From positions 523,221 to 587,220 of the forward strand of contig AP024673.1 in assembly GCA_025998675.1 (NCBI GenBank): a DNA stretch of 64,000 bases, given 5' to 3'. This DNA is from Fimbriimonadales bacterium (lineage in GTDB: Bacteria > Armatimonadota > Fimbriimonadia > Fimbriimonadales > GBS-DC). Both the position numbers and the translations under genes were made by a program. Within the stretch, counting starts at the first letter, position 1, and each line of letters begins with the position of its first letter. Positions 29,393 through 39,633 of this stretch are shown here, in pieces. The notes below the pieces were generated by a model. It searched no databases, was not told the origin of the DNA, and was given only the letters and a program-made list of their open reading frames with translations.

Positions 29393-29752
29393 ATGCGTAT
29401 CCTGGTGGTGGACGACGAACCGATGGTGCGGTTCCTGCTCACGCGCTTCCTGGAAGAGGAAGGGCACGCGGTGGATGAGGCTGTAGACGGCATCGACGCG
29501 CTGGAACGCCTTAAGCAGCGCGAATATGACCTGCTCATCAGTGATGTGCATATGCCGCGCATGTGCGGGATTGACCTGGTGCGTGCGATTCGCCGCCTTG
29601 GGATACGCTTACCGCTGATAGTGATGGACAGTTATCCCGAGCTGTTCTCGGAGAGCGAAGTCGGCGCGGAGGCGTTCGCCCTGCTCGCGAAGCCCTTTGA
29701 CCTCAGCGAGGTACGCCGCGTTCTCCGTGAACTGCAACTACAACCTGTATGA
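29393..29752 (+). CDS. Single-domain response regulator (receiver only)
   Basis: A 119-residue CheY-like receiver with no output domain. Visible are the acidic pair VVDDEP, the phosphoacceptor Asp in LLISDVHMP, and the conserved Lys in LLAKPFD. The conserved Thr/Ser at the end of beta-4 is unusual: the sequence reads PLIVMDSY, with Asp where Thr normally stands. It is first in an operon with a TonB-dependent receptor (10-base gap), a substrate-binding protein and a histidine kinase, which is the likely phosphodonor. With no DNA-binding domain, it must act through protein contacts or as a phosphate sink. Confidence 0.9.
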   Translation: MRILVVDDEPMVRFLLTRFLEEEGHAVDEAVDGIDALERLKQREYDLLISDVHMPRMCGIDLVRAIRRLGIRLPLIVMDSYPELFSESEVGAEAFALLAKPFDLSEVRRVLRELQLQPV

Positions 29753-29762
29753 GGTGATTCCT

Positions 29763-31661
29763 ATGCGAATCGTTTGGATTCTGGCAGGCATAGCGATTGG
29801 CGCTGGACTGGGGTGGGCGCAGCGCACTTCGGAGACGGGTGAGTGGCTGTTCGCCGACCCGCAGGAGGTGGTCAAGACCGCCACGCGCACGGAACGCCCG
29901 ATAGCGGAGTCGTTCACCACTGTGCGCGTACTGACCCGTAAAGAGATTGAACTCAGCGGCGCGCAGACCATTCAGGAACTGCTGGAGCGCATGGTCGCCG
30001 ACTTTGAGGGGCAGGAGTCGTCCCAGCACCGCTTTTTGAGCATGCGCGGCGCCTACAGCGCGTCCGAGTTCAATGAACGGATGCTCTTTCTGCTGGATGG
30101 ACAACCGCTGAACGACCCCGTACTGGGCAACTTCCCGGCGATGAGCCTCAGCACGCACGATGTGGAGCGTGTGGAGGTGGCGTTCGGACCGGGTTCGGCG
30201 ATGTACGGACCGAATGCGTTTGCAGGGGTGGTGAATATCATCACCCAGCAGGAGTCGACGGCGCGTCCCTCGCTCTGGAACGGCTACACGGGGCGCGGCG
30301 GCTACAACGCCTCGTTGCGCTGGACGACCGAGCCGACCAGCCCCACGCGCGTGAGCTTGCAAAGCTCCTTCTGGCGCGATCCGGGCAGCGACCGGGCGTG
30401 GAACAACGACACGAATGTACGCACGGCGCGCCTGTTTGCCTCAGGCGGCAGTCCAGAACGCGGGCAGTGGCGGTTCAACTATCTCTACTCGGATCTGGAG
30501 CGCGGGCAGGTCGGTATGCGTTACTTCACCTATCCGACGCCGACCGACCGCAGCCACTGGCGCACGCACTACTGGCAACTGGAGTATCAGCGACAGTTCG
30601 GTAAAGCAACTCAAACCGCGCGCGTGTACGGATTGAACGGCTCGCTGGTCTTCAACAAGGTGCAGACCGTGCCGCCGCTAACGGGCAGCGAGCCGCGCAC
30701 GCGCATGCCGTTTTCGCAGAGCATGCTCGCCGCTGAGACCTACTGGCAGTGGGCGCTCCCAACTGTGCAGGTACTGGCAGGTGCGGACTATCGTGTAATG
30801 CGCGTGAGCAGTCAAAACCATCTGGGGGGCGCGCACAACGCCCAGAACTTCGCGCTCTACGCACAGGCAGAATGGCAACTGGGACGCTTTCAGCCGATTC
30901 TGGGCGCGCGCTACGACGACCATTCCATTTATGGCAGCCAGCTCAGCCCGCGCGCAGGCTTTACTTACATCGCCGACTCGCAGAACCGATTCCGCGCCTC
31001 CGTCGGGCGCGCGTTCCGCGCCCCCAGCTTCACTGAAATGTTCCTGCAGAATTACTATGTCTGGATGCCAGCAGGCGACAATCCCGTACCGTTGAGCATC
31101 GAGGGCAAGGCGGATTTGCGCCCTGAAGTCACGGTCAGCACGGAGCTGGGCTATCGCTACCTGCACCCGCGCTGGCAGCTGGATGTGTCGTACTTCAGCA
31201 ATCAACTGGACGATGTGGTTTCGGTGTTCACCAAAGATCCCAACCAGCCCCTGCTGCGTCAGTACACCAATCTCTACAGTTTTCGCGTTTGGGGTTGGAC
31301 AGGCGATGCGACCATCAAGCTCGCTCCCGACTGGACGCTCAGCGCGGGCTACATGCATGTGCGCTACACAGGCGGCGTTGAGGAGGACTATAAGCCTGCA
31401 CGGGATCGGGTGGTCATCAGGCTGGCGCACTGGCGCGAGCGCGGGTTGAGCGGGCAGCTAACCTTCAGTTATCCCGCCGTTGGACAGGGGTACTCGGACG
31501 CGCACGCCTGGAACACCTACCTGAACCTCGTCTACCGAATGGATGAACGCAGCCGTTGGAACCTGCGCGTCGACAACCTGTTCAATGTGCGCACGGAGAT
31601 GGCGCGCTGGGTACCAGGCGGGCGACGCAGCGTGTGGTTCACCTATCAACGCGACTGGTGA
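29763..31661 (+). CDS. TonB-dependent outer-membrane receptor
   Basis: A 632-residue receptor. A signal peptide (MRIVWILAGIAIGAGLGWAQ) precedes the plug domain with RVLTRKEIELSGAQTIQELL, MLFLLDGQPLNDPVLGN, VERVEVAFGPGSAMYGPNAFAGVVNIIT. The remainder is a 22-strand barrel ending in a terminal aromatic residue (TYQRDW). It imports a ligand across the outer membrane using TonB energy. The size and the plug motif resemble BtuB or CirA, but the ligand is unknown. GAGGTG precedes the ATG at 29763. It sits between a lone receiver and an ABC-type binding protein plus kinase. Confidence 0.92.
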   Translation: MRIVWILAGIAIGAGLGWAQRTSETGEWLFADPQEVVKTATRTERPIAESFTTVRVLTRKEIELSGAQTIQELLERMVADFEGQESSQHRFLSMRGAYSASEFNERMLFLLDGQPLNDPVLGNFPAMSLSTHDVERVEVAFGPGSAMYGPNAFAGVVNIITQQESTARPSLWNGYTGRGGYNASLRWTTEPTSPTRVSLQSSFWRDPGSDRAWNNDTNVRTARLFASGGSPERGQWRFNYLYSDLERGQVGMRYFTYPTPTDRSHWRTHYWQLEYQRQFGKATQTARVYGLNGSLVFNKVQTVPPLTGSEPRTRMPFSQSMLAAETYWQWALPTVQVLAGADYRVMRVSSQNHLGGAHNAQNFALYAQAEWQLGRFQPILGARYDDHSIYGSQLSPRAGFTYIADSQNRFRASVGRAFRAPSFTEMFLQNYYVWMPAGDNPVPLSIEGKADLRPEVTVSTELGYRYLHPRWQLDVSYFSNQLDDVVSVFTKDPNQPLLRQYTNLYSFRVWGWTGDATIKLAPDWTLSAGYMHVRYTGGVEEDYKPARDRVVIRLAHWRERGLSGQLTFSYPAVGQGYSDAHAWNTYLNLVYRMDERSRWNLRVDNLFNVRTEMARWVPGGRRSVWFTYQRDW

Positions 31662-31665
31662 GAGC

Positions 31666-32631
31666 GTGCAGAAGCTGGGAGCCGTCTTCGCCGTGTGGGG
31701 AGTCGTGTGCGCGCTGCTGCAGGGGCAGGGCGTCGATGTCGCCATTCTGCAGAGCGGCGAAGGCGGCTTCTATGCGGAAGCCGTGCAGCGGTTCCACACA
31801 ACACTGGAGCAGCAGGGCTACGCCGTTCAGACGCTCGTCTTCGTTCTGAAGGGTGACCGCTCGGACGCCGATTTGCCCCGTCGAATCCTTGAAAAGCGTC
31901 CCAAGATTATCCTGGCAGTCGGCACAAACGCCGTCAAAGCGATTCGCGCCCATTACGAAAAGGTTCCCCCGCAACAACAGGCGCCCGTTGTGTTTCTGCA
32001 GGTGATTGACCCGATTGGCGAGGGGTTGATTAAGAGTGTGGAACGCAGCGACACGCGGTTTGCGGGCGTCGCGCTGACGGTGCGTCCTCAGCGGCAACTG
32101 AGTACCTTGCTCGATATCGCGCCCGAAACGAAGCGGGTGGGGGTTATCTACAACCCCAGAGACAGCGTCTCGCAACGCCTGATGGAGCAGGCGCGTGAGG
32201 ACGCCTCCAAACTGGGCGTTGCGCTGCAAGAGGCGCTTCTCGAGCAGGCGTCGCAGATTGGCGACGCCCTGAAATCGCTGGAGGGCAAGGTAGACGCGCT
32301 GTGGCTGATTCCCGACCCTGTGTGCGCCGCGCCGGAGCCGTCCCAGCGTGTACTGGAATTCGCGGAACGGCACAAACTGCCCGTGCTGGCGTTCGCGGGG
32401 GCGTTTGTGCAACGCGGCGCGCTGGTCGCCACAGGCGTTGACATGGCGGAACAGGGCGCCCTCGCAGCGGAGCAGGTCATCCGCATCTTGGAAGGCGAGG
32501 CGCCCGAATCGCTGCCGTTGCTGACCCCAAGACGCACCCTGACCTTTTACAACCTCAAGACCGCGCGCGCGCTCAACATCACAATCCCGGATATGCTGTT
32601 GAATCTTGCGGCAAAGGTGTATGAACCATGA
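31666..32631 (+). CDS. Periplasmic ABC-type substrate-binding protein (ABC_sub_bind family)
   Basis: A 321-residue exported binding protein. The GTG at 31666 is chosen because it follows the receptor stop by four bases and gives a good signal peptide (MQKLGAVFAVWGVVCALLQG). The body shows the family pattern: a first lobe (VDVAILQSGEGGFYAEAVQRFH, KIILAVGTNAVKAI, PVVFLQVIDPIGEGL) and a second lobe (KRVGVIYNPRDSVSQRLMEQ, ALWLIPDPVC, LPVLAFAGAFVQRGALVATGVDMAEQG). Such proteins bind amino acids or sugars for ABC importers, but no permease or ATPase is adjacent. The stop overlaps the kinase start by four bases, so it may act as a ligand-presenting partner of the kinase. Confidence 0.85.
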   Translation: MQKLGAVFAVWGVVCALLQGQGVDVAILQSGEGGFYAEAVQRFHTTLEQQGYAVQTLVFVLKGDRSDADLPRRILEKRPKIILAVGTNAVKAIRAHYEKVPPQQQAPVVFLQVIDPIGEGLIKSVERSDTRFAGVALTVRPQRQLSTLLDIAPETKRVGVIYNPRDSVSQRLMEQAREDASKLGVALQEALLEQASQIGDALKSLEGKVDALWLIPDPVCAAPEPSQRVLEFAERHKLPVLAFAGAFVQRGALVATGVDMAEQGALAAEQVIRILEGEAPESLPLLTPRRTLTFYNLKTARALNITIPDMLLNLAAKVYEP

Positions 32632-35165
32632 AACGGCTGGGGCTTCGTGAGCGGCTGCTGTTGTTTTACGCGCTGATGGCGTTGACGCCCGTCGCGCTCT
32701 CAGGGACGCTCCTCTACTTCTACCTCAATCGTCAGGTCGGCGCCTCAGCGCAGGCGTTCCAGCAAGGTGTGCAAAACGATTTGCAACGCTCCCAGCGAGC
32801 CATCCGCGCAAGCGTGAGCGAGACGCTGCGCCGTTCGCAGCAGCAGGTGCAGACGCAAATCACACAGCACATGGACGACTCGCGCACGCAGATGCTGCAA
32901 CAACAAAAACGCCTGCTTCAGGATACCGTCGGCACGCTCCAGCAAACGACCGAGAGCGCGTTGCAGCAGACGGAGCGCAACACCATTCAAAACCTGAATC
33001 GCACGCTCAATCAGGTGGATACGCAAGTGCAATCCATTCAGGAGCAGTCGCTCGCCTCGCTGCAGGAGACCACCGCCAGCGCCGCCCGCGAGGTGCTTCA
33101 GCGACTGGTTGCCAGCCATTTGGCGCAACTGAGCGCCCAGGTCTCGCGTCAGGTGGAAAGTCTCCTGCGCAACTACACGGCGCAGCTGAATCTGATTGCC
33201 CAGCAGCCTGCCATTCAGCAGGGCAGTGCGCAGGAGAGCCGCTGGATTCTGCAGGCGCTGCAGGATCGCGAGCCAGCGTATCAGTACCTGGCGTTGCTGG
33301 ATAACACAGGCGCGCCTGTGGTGGAATCAGGCGAGGCGCCGGAAGATGCAGCACAGGCGCAGCAAGCTATTCGCACGCTATGGACGCAGGTGGAGCAGAA
33401 CCGCGAGATTGTGCTGGGCGAGCCGAGCCTCTACAAAGTGGAAGGCAAGAATCAATCGCTCGTGCCGGTGATGGCGCCCGTGAGTCAGATGGGGCAGCAG
33501 TTTCGGGGCGCCATCTTCGCATGGGTCAGCCTTGACGAAGTGAGTGCGCTCACACGCACCTTCCGCGTAGGCGAACGCGGGATTGCGATGCTGGTGCAGC
33601 GTCAGGGGATTGTCATGGCGCACCCGGACAGCCGCCAAATCGGCGCGGGGACGCCCTATGCGCGCCTGCTTGAGAATGCGCCGTTGCAGGCGCAGTTCGC
33701 CGTCTACCCCACTCCCGAAGGCGACCAGCTCATCGCGGCTGCGCCTGTGCGTCGCCTGCAGGCGTGGCTACTGGTCGTTCAGCCGACCGAGGAAGCCTTC
33801 CGACTGGCGACCGAGCTGCAAGCGACGGTGCAGCAGAACTTTGCGCGGCAGCGGGAAGCGACCACGCGCGCCCTGCGCCGCACGCGCGACCAGGCGCAGG
33901 CGCGTATCACCGCGCAGGTTCAGGCAGAACAACAGCACACGCGTCAGCAGATACGCCTGTCGGAGGCGCGCGCGACCCAGCAGTCCGCGCAGATGCTCTC
34001 GCGCCTTGCCGACTCCCAACAGCAAACTCTTGTGCGTGCAATTGCCGTGTCCCTAAGTGCGGTTCAAACGAATCTCGAGAAAAACCTGACGCTCCAGCTG
34101 AATCGGGCGTTTGAAGAGACCAGTCAGCAGCTCCGCGCCAGCGCGGAAGACCTGCGCGTGAACATCGACTCCCGTCTGCGCGATGCGTTTATGGTCGCCT
34201 TGCTCTCTGTGCTGGCGTTCCTGTTATTTGGGGCGGCTTTCCTGGATCGTGCGCTGGTGCGTCCGCTGCGTGTGCTGGTGCGCGTCACGCACGAAATCGC
34301 CGCAGGCGATCTCACCAAGCGCGTCGTGCTACCGAAACGCGGCTGTCCCGACCTGGATGACCTCGCCGACTCGTTCAATCACATGGTGGACGCCGTGCAG
34401 CGGAGTCAGGAAGAACTCAAGCAGGCGGAGGCGCAGTTGATTCAGTCCAGCAAGCTTGCCTCGCTGGGCACGCTGGCGTCGGGTGTGGCGCACGAGCTGA
34501 ATCAGCCGCTGGCGATTATCCGCGCAATCGCCCAGCAGAACCTCGAGACCATCGACAGCACACCAGCGCCGCAACTGATTCCGATGCTGCGCGAAGACCT
34601 GCAGATTATCCACCGTCAGACCGTGCGCATGAGCCAGATTATTCAGCACCTGCGCGCCTTCGCACGCAAGCCGCGCGAGGAATTCGAGCCCGTGAACCTG
34701 AACGAGATTGCCCAGAACGCGCTCATCTTGCTGCGCGAGCAACTCCGACAGCGCGGGATTACCCTTGTTGAAGAGTACGCGCCGAACCTGCCCCCGGTGC
34801 TGGGCGAGGCGAACTCGCTGGAGCAAATCGTGATCAACCTGCTCACGAACGCGCGCGACGCGCTGGAGAACCTGCCCGACGGACAAATTGCGATCGAGAC
34901 GCGCACCTACGACGACGGCAAGCGCGTCTACGCCGAGCTGTGCGTGCGCGACAATGGGCCGGGCGTCCCCGACGACATCCGTCAGCAGATTTTTGACCCC
35001 TTTTTCACCACCAAAGACCCCAACAAGGGTACCGGGCTGGGGCTTGCCATCTCACTGGAGATTGCGCAAAAACACAACGGCTTCCTCCTGCTGGGCGAGA
35101 CGGGGCGCGGAGCGGCGTTTCTCTTGCGCATTCCCGTCGCCGAATCGCGTCAACAGGCAGCTTAG
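32628..35165 (+). CDS. Sensor histidine kinase with long periplasmic coiled coils around a Cache-like domain
   Basis: An 845-residue membrane kinase. TM1 lies near residues 10-34, then an alpha-helical Gln-rich coiled coil to about 179. A Cache-like sensor domain covers 180-390 (YQYLALLDNTGAPVVESG, GIAMLVQRQGIVMAHPD). A second coiled coil runs 391-519 and TM2 520-542. HAMP follows (VRPLRVLVRVTHEIAAGDLTKR). The HisKA domain has phosphoacceptor His622 in GVAHELNQPL, and the HATPase has INLLTNARDAL, DNGPGVPD and GTGLGLAIS. The two helical arms, each 130-150 residues, would hold the sensor far from the inner membrane. The operon supplies a binding protein, a receptor and a receiver. Confidence 0.92.
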   Translation: MKRLGLRERLLLFYALMALTPVALSGTLLYFYLNRQVGASAQAFQQGVQNDLQRSQRAIRASVSETLRRSQQQVQTQITQHMDDSRTQMLQQQKRLLQDTVGTLQQTTESALQQTERNTIQNLNRTLNQVDTQVQSIQEQSLASLQETTASAAREVLQRLVASHLAQLSAQVSRQVESLLRNYTAQLNLIAQQPAIQQGSAQESRWILQALQDREPAYQYLALLDNTGAPVVESGEAPEDAAQAQQAIRTLWTQVEQNREIVLGEPSLYKVEGKNQSLVPVMAPVSQMGQQFRGAIFAWVSLDEVSALTRTFRVGERGIAMLVQRQGIVMAHPDSRQIGAGTPYARLLENAPLQAQFAVYPTPEGDQLIAAAPVRRLQAWLLVVQPTEEAFRLATELQATVQQNFARQREATTRALRRTRDQAQARITAQVQAEQQHTRQQIRLSEARATQQSAQMLSRLADSQQQTLVRAIAVSLSAVQTNLEKNLTLQLNRAFEETSQQLRASAEDLRVNIDSRLRDAFMVALLSVLAFLLFGAAFLDRALVRPLRVLVRVTHEIAAGDLTKRVVLPKRGCPDLDDLADSFNHMVDAVQRSQEELKQAEAQLIQSSKLASLGTLASGVAHELNQPLAIIRAIAQQNLETIDSTPAPQLIPMLREDLQIIHRQTVRMSQIIQHLRAFARKPREEFEPVNLNEIAQNALILLREQLRQRGITLVEEYAPNLPPVLGEANSLEQIVINLLTNARDALENLPDGQIAIETRTYDDGKRVYAELCVRDNGPGVPDDIRQQIFDPFFTTKDPNKGTGLGLAISLEIAQKHNGFLLLGETGRGAAFLLRIPVAESRQQAA

Positions 35166-36096: not shown

Positions 36097-36156
36097 GCGG
36101 CAGGGCGTCGCGCCGTCGAAGCCGACGAGAACGCGCCAGCCGTTGTGGAGCGCACT

Positions 36157-39100
36157 GTGAGACGGATCGCGCTAATCGGGCTGATAGGGCTTGCGCTGAA
36201 CGCCTCAGCGCAGGAGAACGCGGTGCCTCTGCTGGACTTGAACGGCGCGGCGAAACCGTCTACGCCCACTGCCTCTGGCGTGATTGGGGAATCGACCGCC
36301 GATGTCATCCCTGGCAACGGCACGCGCGGTGGCTACACTACCCGCTATGCGCCCATCGTCCCGTATTCTGAATCCGTTTATGTAGACGGCAAGCGGCTCC
36401 AGCGCGATCTCGATTACTGGATTGACTACGCTTCGGGGGCGATTGCCTTCGCACAGCCTGTGCGCCGAGTCTCCACCGTGCAGGTCTACTACCGCTACGA
36501 CCCGAAAGGCAAGCGTGAGGGCGTGGTGGGCGCGTTGCCCATCCTCTCGCTTTCGTTCGGGCAGGGCGGCAGTCTGAACGCGCTTTACATGCCCGGCGTC
36601 ACGGAGACCGCGCGCGACGGAACCGCCTACCGCCTGAGTGTGTATGGCATGCAGAACGCGCTGCGCTTCGGCGGCGGCAGCCTGCAGGGGTACTTCTTCG
36701 TCGGCTCGCGCGAAGCCATCAACGCCTACGCCGCGCCCAACACGCGCGACCCGCAGAAGCCCACCATCGCGCCTTCCGAAACCGCGCAGTTTATCGTGCA
36801 GCAACTGCAGATGGACACGGGCGCGCTGCAAATCCGCGCCAACTATCAGGACATCGGCAAGGGCTTCTCCGCGCAGAAGATGCTCGGCATGCAGAGCGGG
36901 CTGGATGCGAACCAGCTGGCGGCGTGGGAGCGTGAGCGGGGCATCAGGCGCTACGACTACGCGATTGGACTGAAGCTCGGCGGCGCGTCGCTCCAGCAGA
37001 CCCAGCTGCGCATTCAGGACGACAAGGGCGCAATTGAGCAACAGGGCTGGCAGTTCGCAAGCAACTGGCTGAACCTCAACTGGACGCGACGCGAATCCGC
37101 CGCCGAGTTCCAGCGCTACAAAGACCTCGGCGACGCGCAGAAGGGCGACTGGCAGCGCGAGCGCGGACTCGTGCGCGAACAACTCGCTTCCAGCCTGCAA
37201 TTCGCGCCGAACAGCACGCTCAAGTATGACCAGCTGCTGCTCAAGCAGGGCGCGGCGCGCATCGAGCGCGATGTCTACGCGCTGGAGATGCCCTGGTTGA
37301 AGGCGTCGCGCATGCAGCAGCGGGTCGGCGAGGGGTTCACACGCTTTGGCGACCTCTCGGAGGGCGACAAAGGGCAGCTCGCGCGCGAAGTGGGCATGCA
37401 ACGCGACCAGACCCAGCTGGAAATCACGCAGCCGAATTTCAAACTCGCCGCCGCCGAGCAGGAAGTACGCTCGCCCACCGGCGCGCTGGAGCGGGAAAGC
37501 CTCAAGATAGAGACCGCGCATGTGGTGGTGGAGCATACGCACCGCGCCGTCTCGCCTGAGTTTGGCAGGTTGCCCCATCTTGCCCCGCAGGAGCATCAGC
37601 AACTGGTGGAGGAGGTGCGCCAGTTCCACGACACGGCGAACGCGGTTCCGTTCGACCCCAATCATGACCTGCCGCTGCTGATGCGCGAGCAGGGGTTGGA
37701 GCGCACGCTTCAGCGCGTGGAGGTTAAACCTGCGAAAGACCTCTCGCTGCAGATGCGTCGCTATGAGACGGCGAACCGCGCGGGCGAAGGCGACCTGAAA
37801 GGCGTCCAGTGGCAGCTGCGCACGCCGACCCTGCAACTGCGCCTGCACGAGCGCGCCGTTGCGCCGACTTTCAATCGCCTGCGCGACCTGACCCGCATCG
37901 AGCAGGCGCTGTTCCACAACGAGCAGGGCATCCACCGCTTCGACTGGGACGCCGCCATCACCACCCGACAGTTCGGGCTGGCGGTCTCACAGATGCGCGT
38001 GCGTGAGATTGGCGCCGGCTTGCATCGGCTGAGCGCGCGTCTGATCCATCCCCTCGTGGAGCTGCACTATCACCAGCGGCAGGTAGACGCCGACTTCGCG
38101 CGGGCGCACGACCTCGCCGACCCGGAGCGCGATTTCTTCGCCCAGCTGCGCGGCTACCGTCAACACGACTGGACCGCCAAACTGCGTCCCGCCCAGAACC
38201 TGCAGCTGGAGCTGTTCGGTTTTCAGGCGAGCAACCCGCTGGAAAGTATCGCCAACCGCCGCCAGCGCTATCGCGTTGTGTGGCAGCCCTTCAAAAATCT
38301 CACCTTCGGACGCCATCAGGACGCCTACGAATCGGACAAAATCGTGGAGCGCCTCTATCAGGATGAGTACGACCGCAGCGACCTGCAGTACCAGCTGGGC
38401 TGGGGGCAGCTGAACGCCTATCAAGAGCGTCGGCGCATCGGCGGCACGCTGGCGAACCCCCTCTATCAGGACTCCGAGTTCTGGCGCTTTCAATCGAGCG
38501 CGGTGCGCAACTTGAACCTCGCGCTGGAGGAGCGGCGCACGACGGCGACGGGCGCGCCCAGTGAGCGCTATCGGCACTATCAGACCGCCTACACGCTCAA
38601 CCCGCGCACGAAACTGCAACTGGCGCATATGGAAGCCAACCGCGAGGGCGCGCCCGACGAGAGCGCACAACAAATCGGGCTGGAGTACGAACTCAAGCCG
38701 GGCGCGAAGCTCACCTTCTCCGAGACCCGTCAGGCGAAAGAGGGCGCAAACGGCAACCGCGTGCTGTCGGCGGGGCTGACCCAGACCGCCTTCGGCGTGC
38801 TGAGCATCGGCGGCGTGTATCAGGAGCAGCGCATCGACCGCACCAACACCCGCGCCCAGAGCCAGGTGGTCGTCCAGAGCGCGAAGCCGTTCAGCTTTCT
38901 GGGGCTGCAGGAGTTCCAGTTCGATTTCCGCTACGGCGCGCTGGCGGATCGCGGGATGTGGCATCAGGAGAACAAGCACTTCACGGCGCAAGCCGTCGCA
39001 CTGCGCCACAAACTCGCGGGCGGCTATGTCGGGCTGTATGTGCCGGGGCAGGGGCGCGCTGTGGATCGCTACTATCAGCTCGAATCGCCGCCCCATCCGC

Positions 39101-39633
39101 TGCTCACCTACCGCCTGCTGTATAAGACGCGCACCTATCAGGACGGCAGGCTGTTCCTGGTGCGCCACTACAACTTCGCCTACAAGCTGGACGGGCGGCT
39201 GACGCTCACGCACGAGTTCCAGACCCACCCTGAACAGGCGAACGCGCAGGTGGTGCTGGGCTCCGTGCTGCAGCCGACGGGCTTCTCGGCGTGGGGGCTG
39301 GAGTGGCGCTGGACGCCCCGAATCATGCTGCGCGGCGACTACCGTATCGAGTGGAACGACCAGCAGAACCGCCGCACGCGGCGCGGCGGGCTGACCCTCA
39401 GCGCGAACCAGAGCGACGGGCTGCAATACAGCTTCGGCTACCGCGTCGACTCCGAGCGGTTCGGCGCGCGCAACGCGATTGCGCACACCTTCTTCCTCTC
39501 CACCGAGCGCAAGCTGGACTCGGAGAACTTCCTGATGTTCGGCTTCCAGTGGACGCATTACGAGCGTCGCCCCGACGCGAGCATCCCGCGCGACCAGCAA
39601 CGCCTCGTGCTGGAATGGCGCAAGCCGTTTTGA
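36157..39633 (+). CDS. Large exported envelope protein with a spaced repeat, probably outer membrane
   Basis: A 1,158-residue exported protein. The GTG at 36157 has GGAG six bases upstream and gives the signal peptide MRRIALIGLIGLALNASAQ; a longer frame starts at 36145. The start of the mature chain has ESVYVDGKRLQRDLDYWIDY, a surface-protein motif. Alternating polar/aromatic strands and an end in RLVLEWRKPF, with a terminal Phe, suggest a beta barrel. Between residues 325 and 660 a motif of the form F-x-R-x2-(D/H)-L followed by charged residues recurs at least five times (FQRYKDL, FTRFGDL, FGRLPHL, FNRLRDL, FARAHDL). No known family was recognised. Confidence 0.7.
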   Translation: MRRIALIGLIGLALNASAQENAVPLLDLNGAAKPSTPTASGVIGESTADVIPGNGTRGGYTTRYAPIVPYSESVYVDGKRLQRDLDYWIDYASGAIAFAQPVRRVSTVQVYYRYDPKGKREGVVGALPILSLSFGQGGSLNALYMPGVTETARDGTAYRLSVYGMQNALRFGGGSLQGYFFVGSREAINAYAAPNTRDPQKPTIAPSETAQFIVQQLQMDTGALQIRANYQDIGKGFSAQKMLGMQSGLDANQLAAWERERGIRRYDYAIGLKLGGASLQQTQLRIQDDKGAIEQQGWQFASNWLNLNWTRRESAAEFQRYKDLGDAQKGDWQRERGLVREQLASSLQFAPNSTLKYDQLLLKQGAARIERDVYALEMPWLKASRMQQRVGEGFTRFGDLSEGDKGQLAREVGMQRDQTQLEITQPNFKLAAAEQEVRSPTGALERESLKIETAHVVVEHTHRAVSPEFGRLPHLAPQEHQQLVEEVRQFHDTANAVPFDPNHDLPLLMREQGLERTLQRVEVKPAKDLSLQMRRYETANRAGEGDLKGVQWQLRTPTLQLRLHERAVAPTFNRLRDLTRIEQALFHNEQGIHRFDWDAAITTRQFGLAVSQMRVREIGAGLHRLSARLIHPLVELHYHQRQVDADFARAHDLADPERDFFAQLRGYRQHDWTAKLRPAQNLQLELFGFQASNPLESIANRRQRYRVVWQPFKNLTFGRHQDAYESDKIVERLYQDEYDRSDLQYQLGWGQLNAYQERRRIGGTLANPLYQDSEFWRFQSSAVRNLNLALEERRTTATGAPSERYRHYQTAYTLNPRTKLQLAHMEANREGAPDESAQQIGLEYELKPGAKLTFSETRQAKEGANGNRVLSAGLTQTAFGVLSIGGVYQEQRIDRTNTRAQSQVVVQSAKPFSFLGLQEFQFDFRYGALADRGMWHQENKHFTAQAVALRHKLAGGYVGLYVPGQGRAVDRYYQLESPPHPLLTYRLLYKTRTYQDGRLFLVRHYNFAYKLDGRLTLTHEFQTHPEQANAQVVLGSVLQPTGFSAWGLEWRWTPRIMLRGDYRIEWNDQQNRRTRRGGLTLSANQSDGLQYSFGYRVDSERFGARNAIAHTFFLSTERKLDSENFLMFGFQWTHYERRPDASIPRDQQRLVLEWRKPF

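Follow-up and report, generated by a model that had tools for sequence, protein, structure and literature searches.

A TonB-type receptor encoded with a binding protein and a stalked histidine kinase in an armatimonadotal bacterium: a candidate TonB-independent outer membrane sensor

The DNA analyzed here (the window) is a stretch of 64,000 nucleotides from a Fimbriimonadales bacterium of the phylum Armatimonadota (assembly GCA_025998675.1, contig AP024673.1, positions 523,221 to 587,220), whose genome is a single contig of 2.99 Mb. Open reading frames (ORFs) and Pfam searches identify on the plus strand of the window a four-gene operon encoding a receiver, a TonB-type receptor, a periplasmic binding protein of family PF04392 and a dCache histidine kinase. 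The tight four-gene operon described in an earlier note on this DNA was borne out: receiver and receptor genes are 10 bp apart, receptor and binding protein genes 4 bp, and the binding protein and kinase genes overlap by 4 bp (ATGA). The first gene (29393 to 29752) encodes a receiver-only response regulator of 119 amino acids (PF00072, 3.5e-23). It is followed by the gene for a Cir/BtuB-like outer membrane protein of the TonB-dependent-receptor type with plug and barrel (632 amino acids, 29763 to 31661, likely start ATG at 29763; PF07715, 6e-17; PF00593, 7.3e-30). The third product is the PF04392 (ABC_sub_bind) protein, which has a signal-peptide-like N terminus (321 amino acids, 31666 to 32631, likely start GTG at 31666; 6.3e-43). 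The last gene (32628 to 35165) encodes a histidine kinase of 845 amino acids with the domains PF02743 (dCache_1), PF00672 (HAMP), PF00512 (HisKA) and PF02518 (HATPase_c).

The receptor is the sole Plug protein of the host genome (G000), and exactly one such protein occurs in each of the 15 of 18 genomes of the host family (f1) that have any Plug match. Both PF07715 and PF00593 matched above cut-off, and the AlphaFold2 model (predicted local distance difference test [pLDDT], 81; predicted template modeling score [pTM], 0.84) agrees with a plug in a barrel of the 22-stranded type; the best Foldseek matches were BtuB and Cir. Pfam returned only the plug and barrel families and no STN domain. The ratio of nonsynonymous to synonymous substitutions relative to locus L033 was 0.08, the lowest among the four operon genes, and the receptor is under purifying selection. 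No match to TonB_C was found in the host genome or in any of the 18 family genomes, nor was there any to ExbD (0/18). The models tonB_Cterm (TIGR01352) and TonB_2 also gave 0/18 above cut-off, and the two sub-cut-off matches to each lay outside the host genome. The single MotA_ExbB match in the host genome is flagellar MotA beside MotB, as identified by Pfam; 17 of the 18 family genomes have one such match each, its identity as MotA being established for the host genome. The same models matched elsewhere in the phylum (TonB_C in 105 and ExbD in 125 of 291 genomes) and therefore do work in Armatimonadota, and since Omp85 is present in 18/18 family genomes, an outer membrane is expected. The host bacterium thus appears, from these profile searches, to lack TonB-type powering machinery. 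In PMC12204202, Armatimonadetes are listed among the TonB-possessing phyla, a count that fits the phylum-wide result and not the host family. The earlier note had proposed that import and sensing of one ligand are combined here; the import half is left unsupported by these results. Because no energizer was detected and no permease is linked to the operon, sensing is better supported than uptake.

Conservation of the module was followed in the 18 genomes of the host family and in a phylum set of 291 Armatimonadota genomes, with neighborhood labels from profiles built within the analysis, of which only some genes were verified in Pfam. PF04392 proteins are present in 17/18 host family genomes and in 67/291 genomes of the phylum at an E value of ≤0.001 (45 above the curated cut-off). 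In the host family, the kinase gene lies directly downstream of the PF04392 gene in 17/17 loci; where the contig extends far enough, the receptor gene lies upstream in 13/13 loci (in L036 with an extra ORF between receptor and binding protein) and the receiver gene directly upstream of the receptor gene in 10/10. Of 10 loci in the distant families f11 and f13, 8 have the order binding protein-kinase-receiver-receptor and 2 are cut inside the kinase. An accidental neighborhood of the four genes was rejected because the linkage is conserved across the host family. The coupling of receptor, binding protein and kinase, as suggested in the earlier note, is kept in the host family, rearranged in f11/f13 and seen in other phyla; dispersal of the genes in relatives, for which that note had asked one to look, did not occur within the host family, although the order is permuted in f11/f13. 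The coupling is real and old.

The PF04392 gene is the only copy in the host genome, and the middle gene of the operon is indeed PF04392 and not YfiR (PF13689). Solved relatives of the protein are 3lkv, 6hni and 3lft; solved PF04392 relatives bind aromatic amino acids. The gene adjoins that of the dCache kinase here and in 17/17 family loci, which is the gene arrangement of a binding-protein-activated kinase. No ATP-binding cassette (ABC) genes were found in the operon or adjoining it, with no search made for an unlinked permease elsewhere in the genome, and at none of the 17 host family loci does a called permease or ATPase gene adjoin the PF04392 gene. The binding protein is therefore an orphan in the sense of the earlier note, with no linked permease. 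Linkage to a permease elsewhere, also raised there, holds for two distant f3 loci outside the module (L047 and L048), where a PF04392 gene lies beside permease and ATPase genes (the permease of L047 is PF02653); it does not hold for the module itself. In other Armatimonadota families, PF04392 is found in further settings. L057 and L060 have it next to a chemoreceptor (identified by Pfam in L057) with no receptor gene called alongside, and L054, L055, L056 and L061 encode tandem PF04392 proteins of about 655 amino acids, one of them of 1077 amino acids.

A scan of named genomes gave 34 PF04392 loci, 11 from Armatimonadota and 23 from other phyla, and at none of the 34 was a permease or ABC ATPase labeled. 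A binding protein serving a linked importer was therefore rejected, because neither the operon nor the 17 family loci nor the 34 scanned loci showed a linked ABC gene. According to the labels of the analysis, 18 of the 23 loci outside Armatimonadota have a receptor gene in the neighborhood shown, and in 16 a same-strand kinase or chemoreceptor gene is next to the binding protein gene. The binding protein gene lies beside both a TonB-type receptor gene and a kinase or chemoreceptor gene in eight other named lineages; loci with both partners are from Omnitrophota, Eisenbacteria, Acidobacteria, Geomonas, Desulfobacteraceae, Verrucomicrobia, CSSED10-310, Scalindua, Anammoxibacter, Alteromonadaceae and Methylocucumis. 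Of these, we take Geomonas and Desulfobacteraceae to be of the Desulfobacterota type, Scalindua and Anammoxibacter of the Planctomycetes type, and Alteromonadaceae and Methylocucumis of the Gammaproteobacteria type. In the receptor-kinase clusters of L094, L095, L097, L099, L103 and L104, the gene immediately before that for PF04392 encodes a second binding protein, of the PF12974 type; this type was found in 6 of 7 checked non-receptor genes directly upstream, L088 being the exception. On Rhizobium plasmids (matches H3 and H8), the features that cover the PF04392 match are annotated as substrate-binding protein and adenylate/guanylate cyclase; here too, an orphan PF04392 protein is paired with a signaling enzyme.

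The kinase has transmembrane helices at residues 10 to 28 and about 521 to 539 in a transmembrane scan, which leaves a periplasmic part of nearly 500 residues. This part consists of an N stalk (residues 29 to 152, 32712 to 33083), the dCache sensor domain (residues 153 to 390, 33084 to 33797; PF02743, 3.6e-20) and a C stalk (residues 391 to 519, 33798 to 34184). In 21/21 aligned kinases, the N stalk is exactly 124 amino acids long at a mean pairwise identity of 0.23; the C stalk is 129 amino acids long (127 in one) at an identity of 0.22, and the dCache domain varies in length from 210 to 241. Both stalks have a hydrophobic period of 3.74, and 0/500 shuffles were as strong. The AlphaFold2 model of the kinase, of moderate confidence (mean pLDDT, 74; pTM, 0.39), has helices at residues 6 to 191 and 392 to 487. 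With the textbook helix rise of 1.5 Å per residue, the stalks would be about 18.6 and 19.4 nm long. The best solved relatives of the dCache domain are sensor domains of chemoreceptors (6iop, 1.7e-6), and among the matches listed by Foldseek for the kinase model, only cytoplasmic kinase parts were matched. Loss of TonB as the cause of the stalks was rejected, because the f11/f13 kinases share them and most f11/f13 genomes have TonB and ExbD.

The receptor segments differ in conservation. Mean pairwise identity in the host family is 0.84 for an N-terminal peptide just ahead of the plug, QRTSETGEWLFADP (residues 20 to 33, 29820 to 29861), 0.75 for the plug, 0.61 for a TonB-box-like stretch and 0.50 for the barrel. 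The peptide exceeds all other compared segments in conservation, yet it is predicted to be disordered (residues 11 to 35, pLDDT <50); family conservation, predicted disorder and the motif-adaptor match described below make it a candidate docking peptide for the binding protein. The TonB-box-like stretch, QEVVKTATR (residues 34 to 42, 29862 to 29888), was so assigned by its position relative to BtuB and Cir and is poorly kept in L044 and L045.

The tree and the motif counts cover receptor sequences that have an N terminus and extend at least 450 residues beyond the start of the plug; all other rows were removed beforehand. The FastTree tree has 111 rows, with long branches flagged, and splits into sides of 76 and 35 rows with a local support of 97, no bootstrap having been run. 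Two types of motif occur just before the plug. An SxEDLM-like motif is present in 25/25 YfiR-coupled receptors, and a motif of the form E-hydrophobic-x-aromatic/aliphatic-hydrophobic in 17/19 PF04392-coupled receptors of the phylum and in 14/19 receptors beside PF04392 in other phyla. Either type was found in 11/38 uncoupled receptors, the background being 27 and 15 of 2320 stretches. The uncoupled carriers are in the genomes G045, G191 and G192, where a PF04392 gene adjoins that of a kinase or chemoreceptor at another locus, in G095 and G136, which have YfiR clusters, and in G240 and G242. All 69/69 motif-bearing receptors are on the side of 76 rows and none on that of 35, and motif and linked adaptor agree in 52/52 rows bearing both. 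The 42 receptors from TonB/ExbD-less genomes are divided 38 to 4 between the larger and the smaller side, all four being on long branches, and those from TonB- and ExbD-positive genomes 25 to 26.

In the phylum set, 128 genomes are Plug positive, of which 47 lack TonB_C and ExbD, 74 have both and 7 have one. A Plug gene was counted as coupled if it lay at most 4 same-strand genes, with a gap limit of 400 bp, from a gene for a kinase, a chemoreceptor (methyl-accepting chemotaxis protein), a GGDEF protein or an HD-GYP protein; the TonB, ExbD and Plug genome lists were transferred by hand into this count. Coupled Plug genes made up 32/39 in TonB_C/ExbD-less genomes (8 more at contig ends), G051 and G054 being counted as such though they may merely be incomplete, versus 16/49 in genomes with both (6 at ends), where the comparison loci were non-random: most are top-ranking entries of the Plug score list, to which the f11/f13 modules and a few f3 loci were added. 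When all loci selected through PF04392 were dropped, 19/26 versus 9/42 were coupled, with a Fisher p of 4e-5 that overstates the evidence because related genomes entered the counts. Universal coupling of receptors to kinases in TonB/ExbD-less genomes was rejected as a general rule, with 7/39 uncoupled. One of the seven, L129 (G136), is arranged like its coupled sister L128 and was probably miscounted through the 400-bp limit; the count was left unchanged. With three exceptions, the adaptor beside coupled receptors was YfiR (PF13689) or a PF04392 protein; four YfiR proteins were confirmed by Pfam. Clusters of receptor, YfiR and kinase, in part with GGDEF, were seen in L141, L145, L147 to L149, L154 to L156, L158 and L159, mostly in TonB_C/ExbD-less genomes and with the SxEDLM-like peptide before the plug. 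L138 and L139 come from two f3 genomes that are nearly complete and match neither TonB_C nor ExbD; each genome has one divergent Plug protein, with no kinase near it by the labels of the analysis.

In the receiver, D51, the phospho-acceptor, and K100 are invariant in the alignment. The sequence VMDSYP, with Asp in the column of the switch Thr, is found in 10/10 aligned receivers of the host family, and Thr in 3/3 aligned f11/f13 receivers. The f11/f13 receiver carries GGDEF and HD-GYP domains (Pfam check on two), from which the ancestral output was probably cyclic di-GMP. The receiver of the host family has no output domain and must therefore act on another protein. In the distant family members L044 and L045, the operon is followed by a further gene, for a receiver-kinase protein that is possibly the next relay. 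The operon is preceded, at 46 bp, by a gene with GH20-related domains, an inconstant member of the cluster among relatives, and followed, at 67 bp, by a gene whose product has zf-HC2 as its sole Pfam domain. Further downstream (36145 to 39633), a protein of 1162 amino acids without a Pfam match is encoded; ORFs of similar size follow the operon in L033, L037 and L041.

A lone receptor that shares its operon with a binding protein and a tall kinase suggests a sensor and not an importer. We consider it an even chance that the operon encodes a TonB-independent outer membrane sensor in which the signal passes from the receptor to the binding protein and on to the stalked kinase. A ligand would bind the receptor from outside, and a change in the receptor, or the released ligand, would be handed over in the periplasm to the PF04392 protein. 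As the tracking of motif and adaptor suggests, this protein may dock to the receptor at its N-terminal peptide; it may dock to the dCache domain of the kinase as well, in the manner of other binding proteins that activate kinases. The two matched helical stalks, some 19 nm long at about 124 and 129 residues, would hold the dCache domain near the outer membrane, and the kinase would phosphorylate the receiver of the operon. A wider reading is that TonB-type receptors include an old TonB-independent class of sensors whose N-terminal peptide docks an interchangeable adaptor (PF04392 or YfiR) that signals to a kinase or chemoreceptor. In f1, two rulers of about 19 nm would carry the kinase itself across the periplasm, so that it touches the complex of adaptor and receptor under the outer membrane. 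In this full form, we consider the wider reading rather unlikely.

Import and sensing of one ligand could still be combined if an energizer escaped detection and the binding protein both fed an unlinked permease and signaled to the kinase. The receptor is an ordinary plugged barrel in fold, with BtuB and Cir as close matches, and retains the TonB-box-like stretch, the f11/f13 relatives with the module are mostly positive for TonB and ExbD, and the distant f3 PF04392 genes adjoin permease and ATPase genes. However, 18/18 family genomes have no TonB_C, TonB_2, tonB_Cterm or ExbD match above cut-off, the one MotA_ExbB protein here being MotA, and neither the 17 family loci nor the 34 cross-phylum loci have a permease or ATPase called beside the gene, unlinked permeases lying outside that search; we regard combined import as unlikely. 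Alternatively, the receptor could be a passive or ligand-gated pore, and the binding protein could then activate the kinase as TorT does TorS or as in LuxP-LuxQ, a further binding-protein-activated kinase system, so that receptor and binding protein need never touch. PF04392 genes do lie beside chemoreceptor genes without a called adjoining receptor gene in L057 and L060, and activation of kinases by binding proteins is described as an established mechanism in PMC9602780. A pore is nevertheless improbable, because the plug is intact and strongly conserved relative to the barrel, and because a conserved, adaptor-type-specific peptide in a predicted disordered segment would be needless for a mere pore.

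The constant stalk length has a rival explanation of its own. It may be fixed only by the matching of antiparallel helices in one coiled coil, with no bearing on reach to the outer membrane. The near equality of the stalks (124 and 129 amino acids) fits this, since an indel in one would need a matching indel in the other. Paired indels would be permissible, but the N stalk is free of them in all 21 kinases despite an identity of 23%, while the dCache domain varies in length. Moreover, most kinases and chemoreceptors encoded next to PF04392 genes in other phyla have a much smaller periplasmic part, the second transmembrane helix lying near residues 165 to 245. Helix matching as the sole cause is thus a real possibility that we nonetheless doubt.

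Several points weigh against a TonB-independent, stalk-based sensor. Absence of TonB rests on profile searches, which a strongly diverged or unrelated energizer could escape, and there were the weak sub-cut-off matches to TIGR01352 and TonB_2 (two each, outside the host genome). The TonB-box-like stretch is still recognizable in the receptor. The f11/f13 genomes with the same module are mostly TonB and ExbD positive, so the module does not require loss of TonB. Residues 493 to 516 of the C stalk are modeled with low confidence (pLDDT <50). Stalks are not the general solution, because those kinases linked to YfiR that were examined in TonB-less genomes carry a CHASE8 sensor, which is short, and no stalks. 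The seven uncoupled Plug genes among the 39 include those of the nearly complete genomes G154 and G155, and relatedness inflates the Fisher test as said. The motif patterns were written after the sequences had been viewed, and the independent branches on which motif and adaptor changed together number only two to three, not enough for significance.

Receptors of the TonB type are commonly taken to be energy-dependent importers. One receptor kept under strong selection after loss of every detectable TonB part would be a clean natural case of sensing only, and the swap of peptide with adaptor would give a sequence rule for separating sensors from importers among proteins annotated as TonB-dependent receptors. 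The stalk length offers a simple test of whether a kinase reads an outer membrane receptor directly.

None of the titles or abstract openings listed in the literature searches describes this arrangement. In transducer receptors of the FecA/FpvA type, a periplasmic element at the N terminus, ahead of the plug, passes the signal inward, and in the proposed sensor the receptor would signal likewise. Unlike the FecA type, this receptor has a short peptide, predicted to be unstructured, in place of an STN domain and a histidine kinase as the output, and its gene neighbors are those for receiver, binding protein and kinase, with no FecR or sigma factor in the operon. The clusters of receptor, YfiR and kinase (L141, L145 and L147) also place a receptor, a small periplasmic adaptor and a membrane kinase or chemoreceptor side by side, frequently in genomes that lack TonB and ExbD matches, but differ in the YfiR/HmsC-like adaptor, the SxEDLM-type peptide and the short CHASE8 sensor of the kinase. 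TrpX-type ABC importers (L047 and L048) share the PF04392 family; there, permease and ATPase genes follow, whereas here it is the kinase gene. About 10 cases of binding-protein-activated sensor kinases have been characterized according to PMC9602780, and as described there for BctC-BctE, TorT-TorS and XylFII-LytS, the operon has a binding protein gene next to those of a kinase with a periplasmic sensor and a receiver. In contrast to those systems, the operon described here has no linked transporter and joins a PF04392 binding protein to an outer membrane receptor and to a kinase with stalks of about 19 nm.

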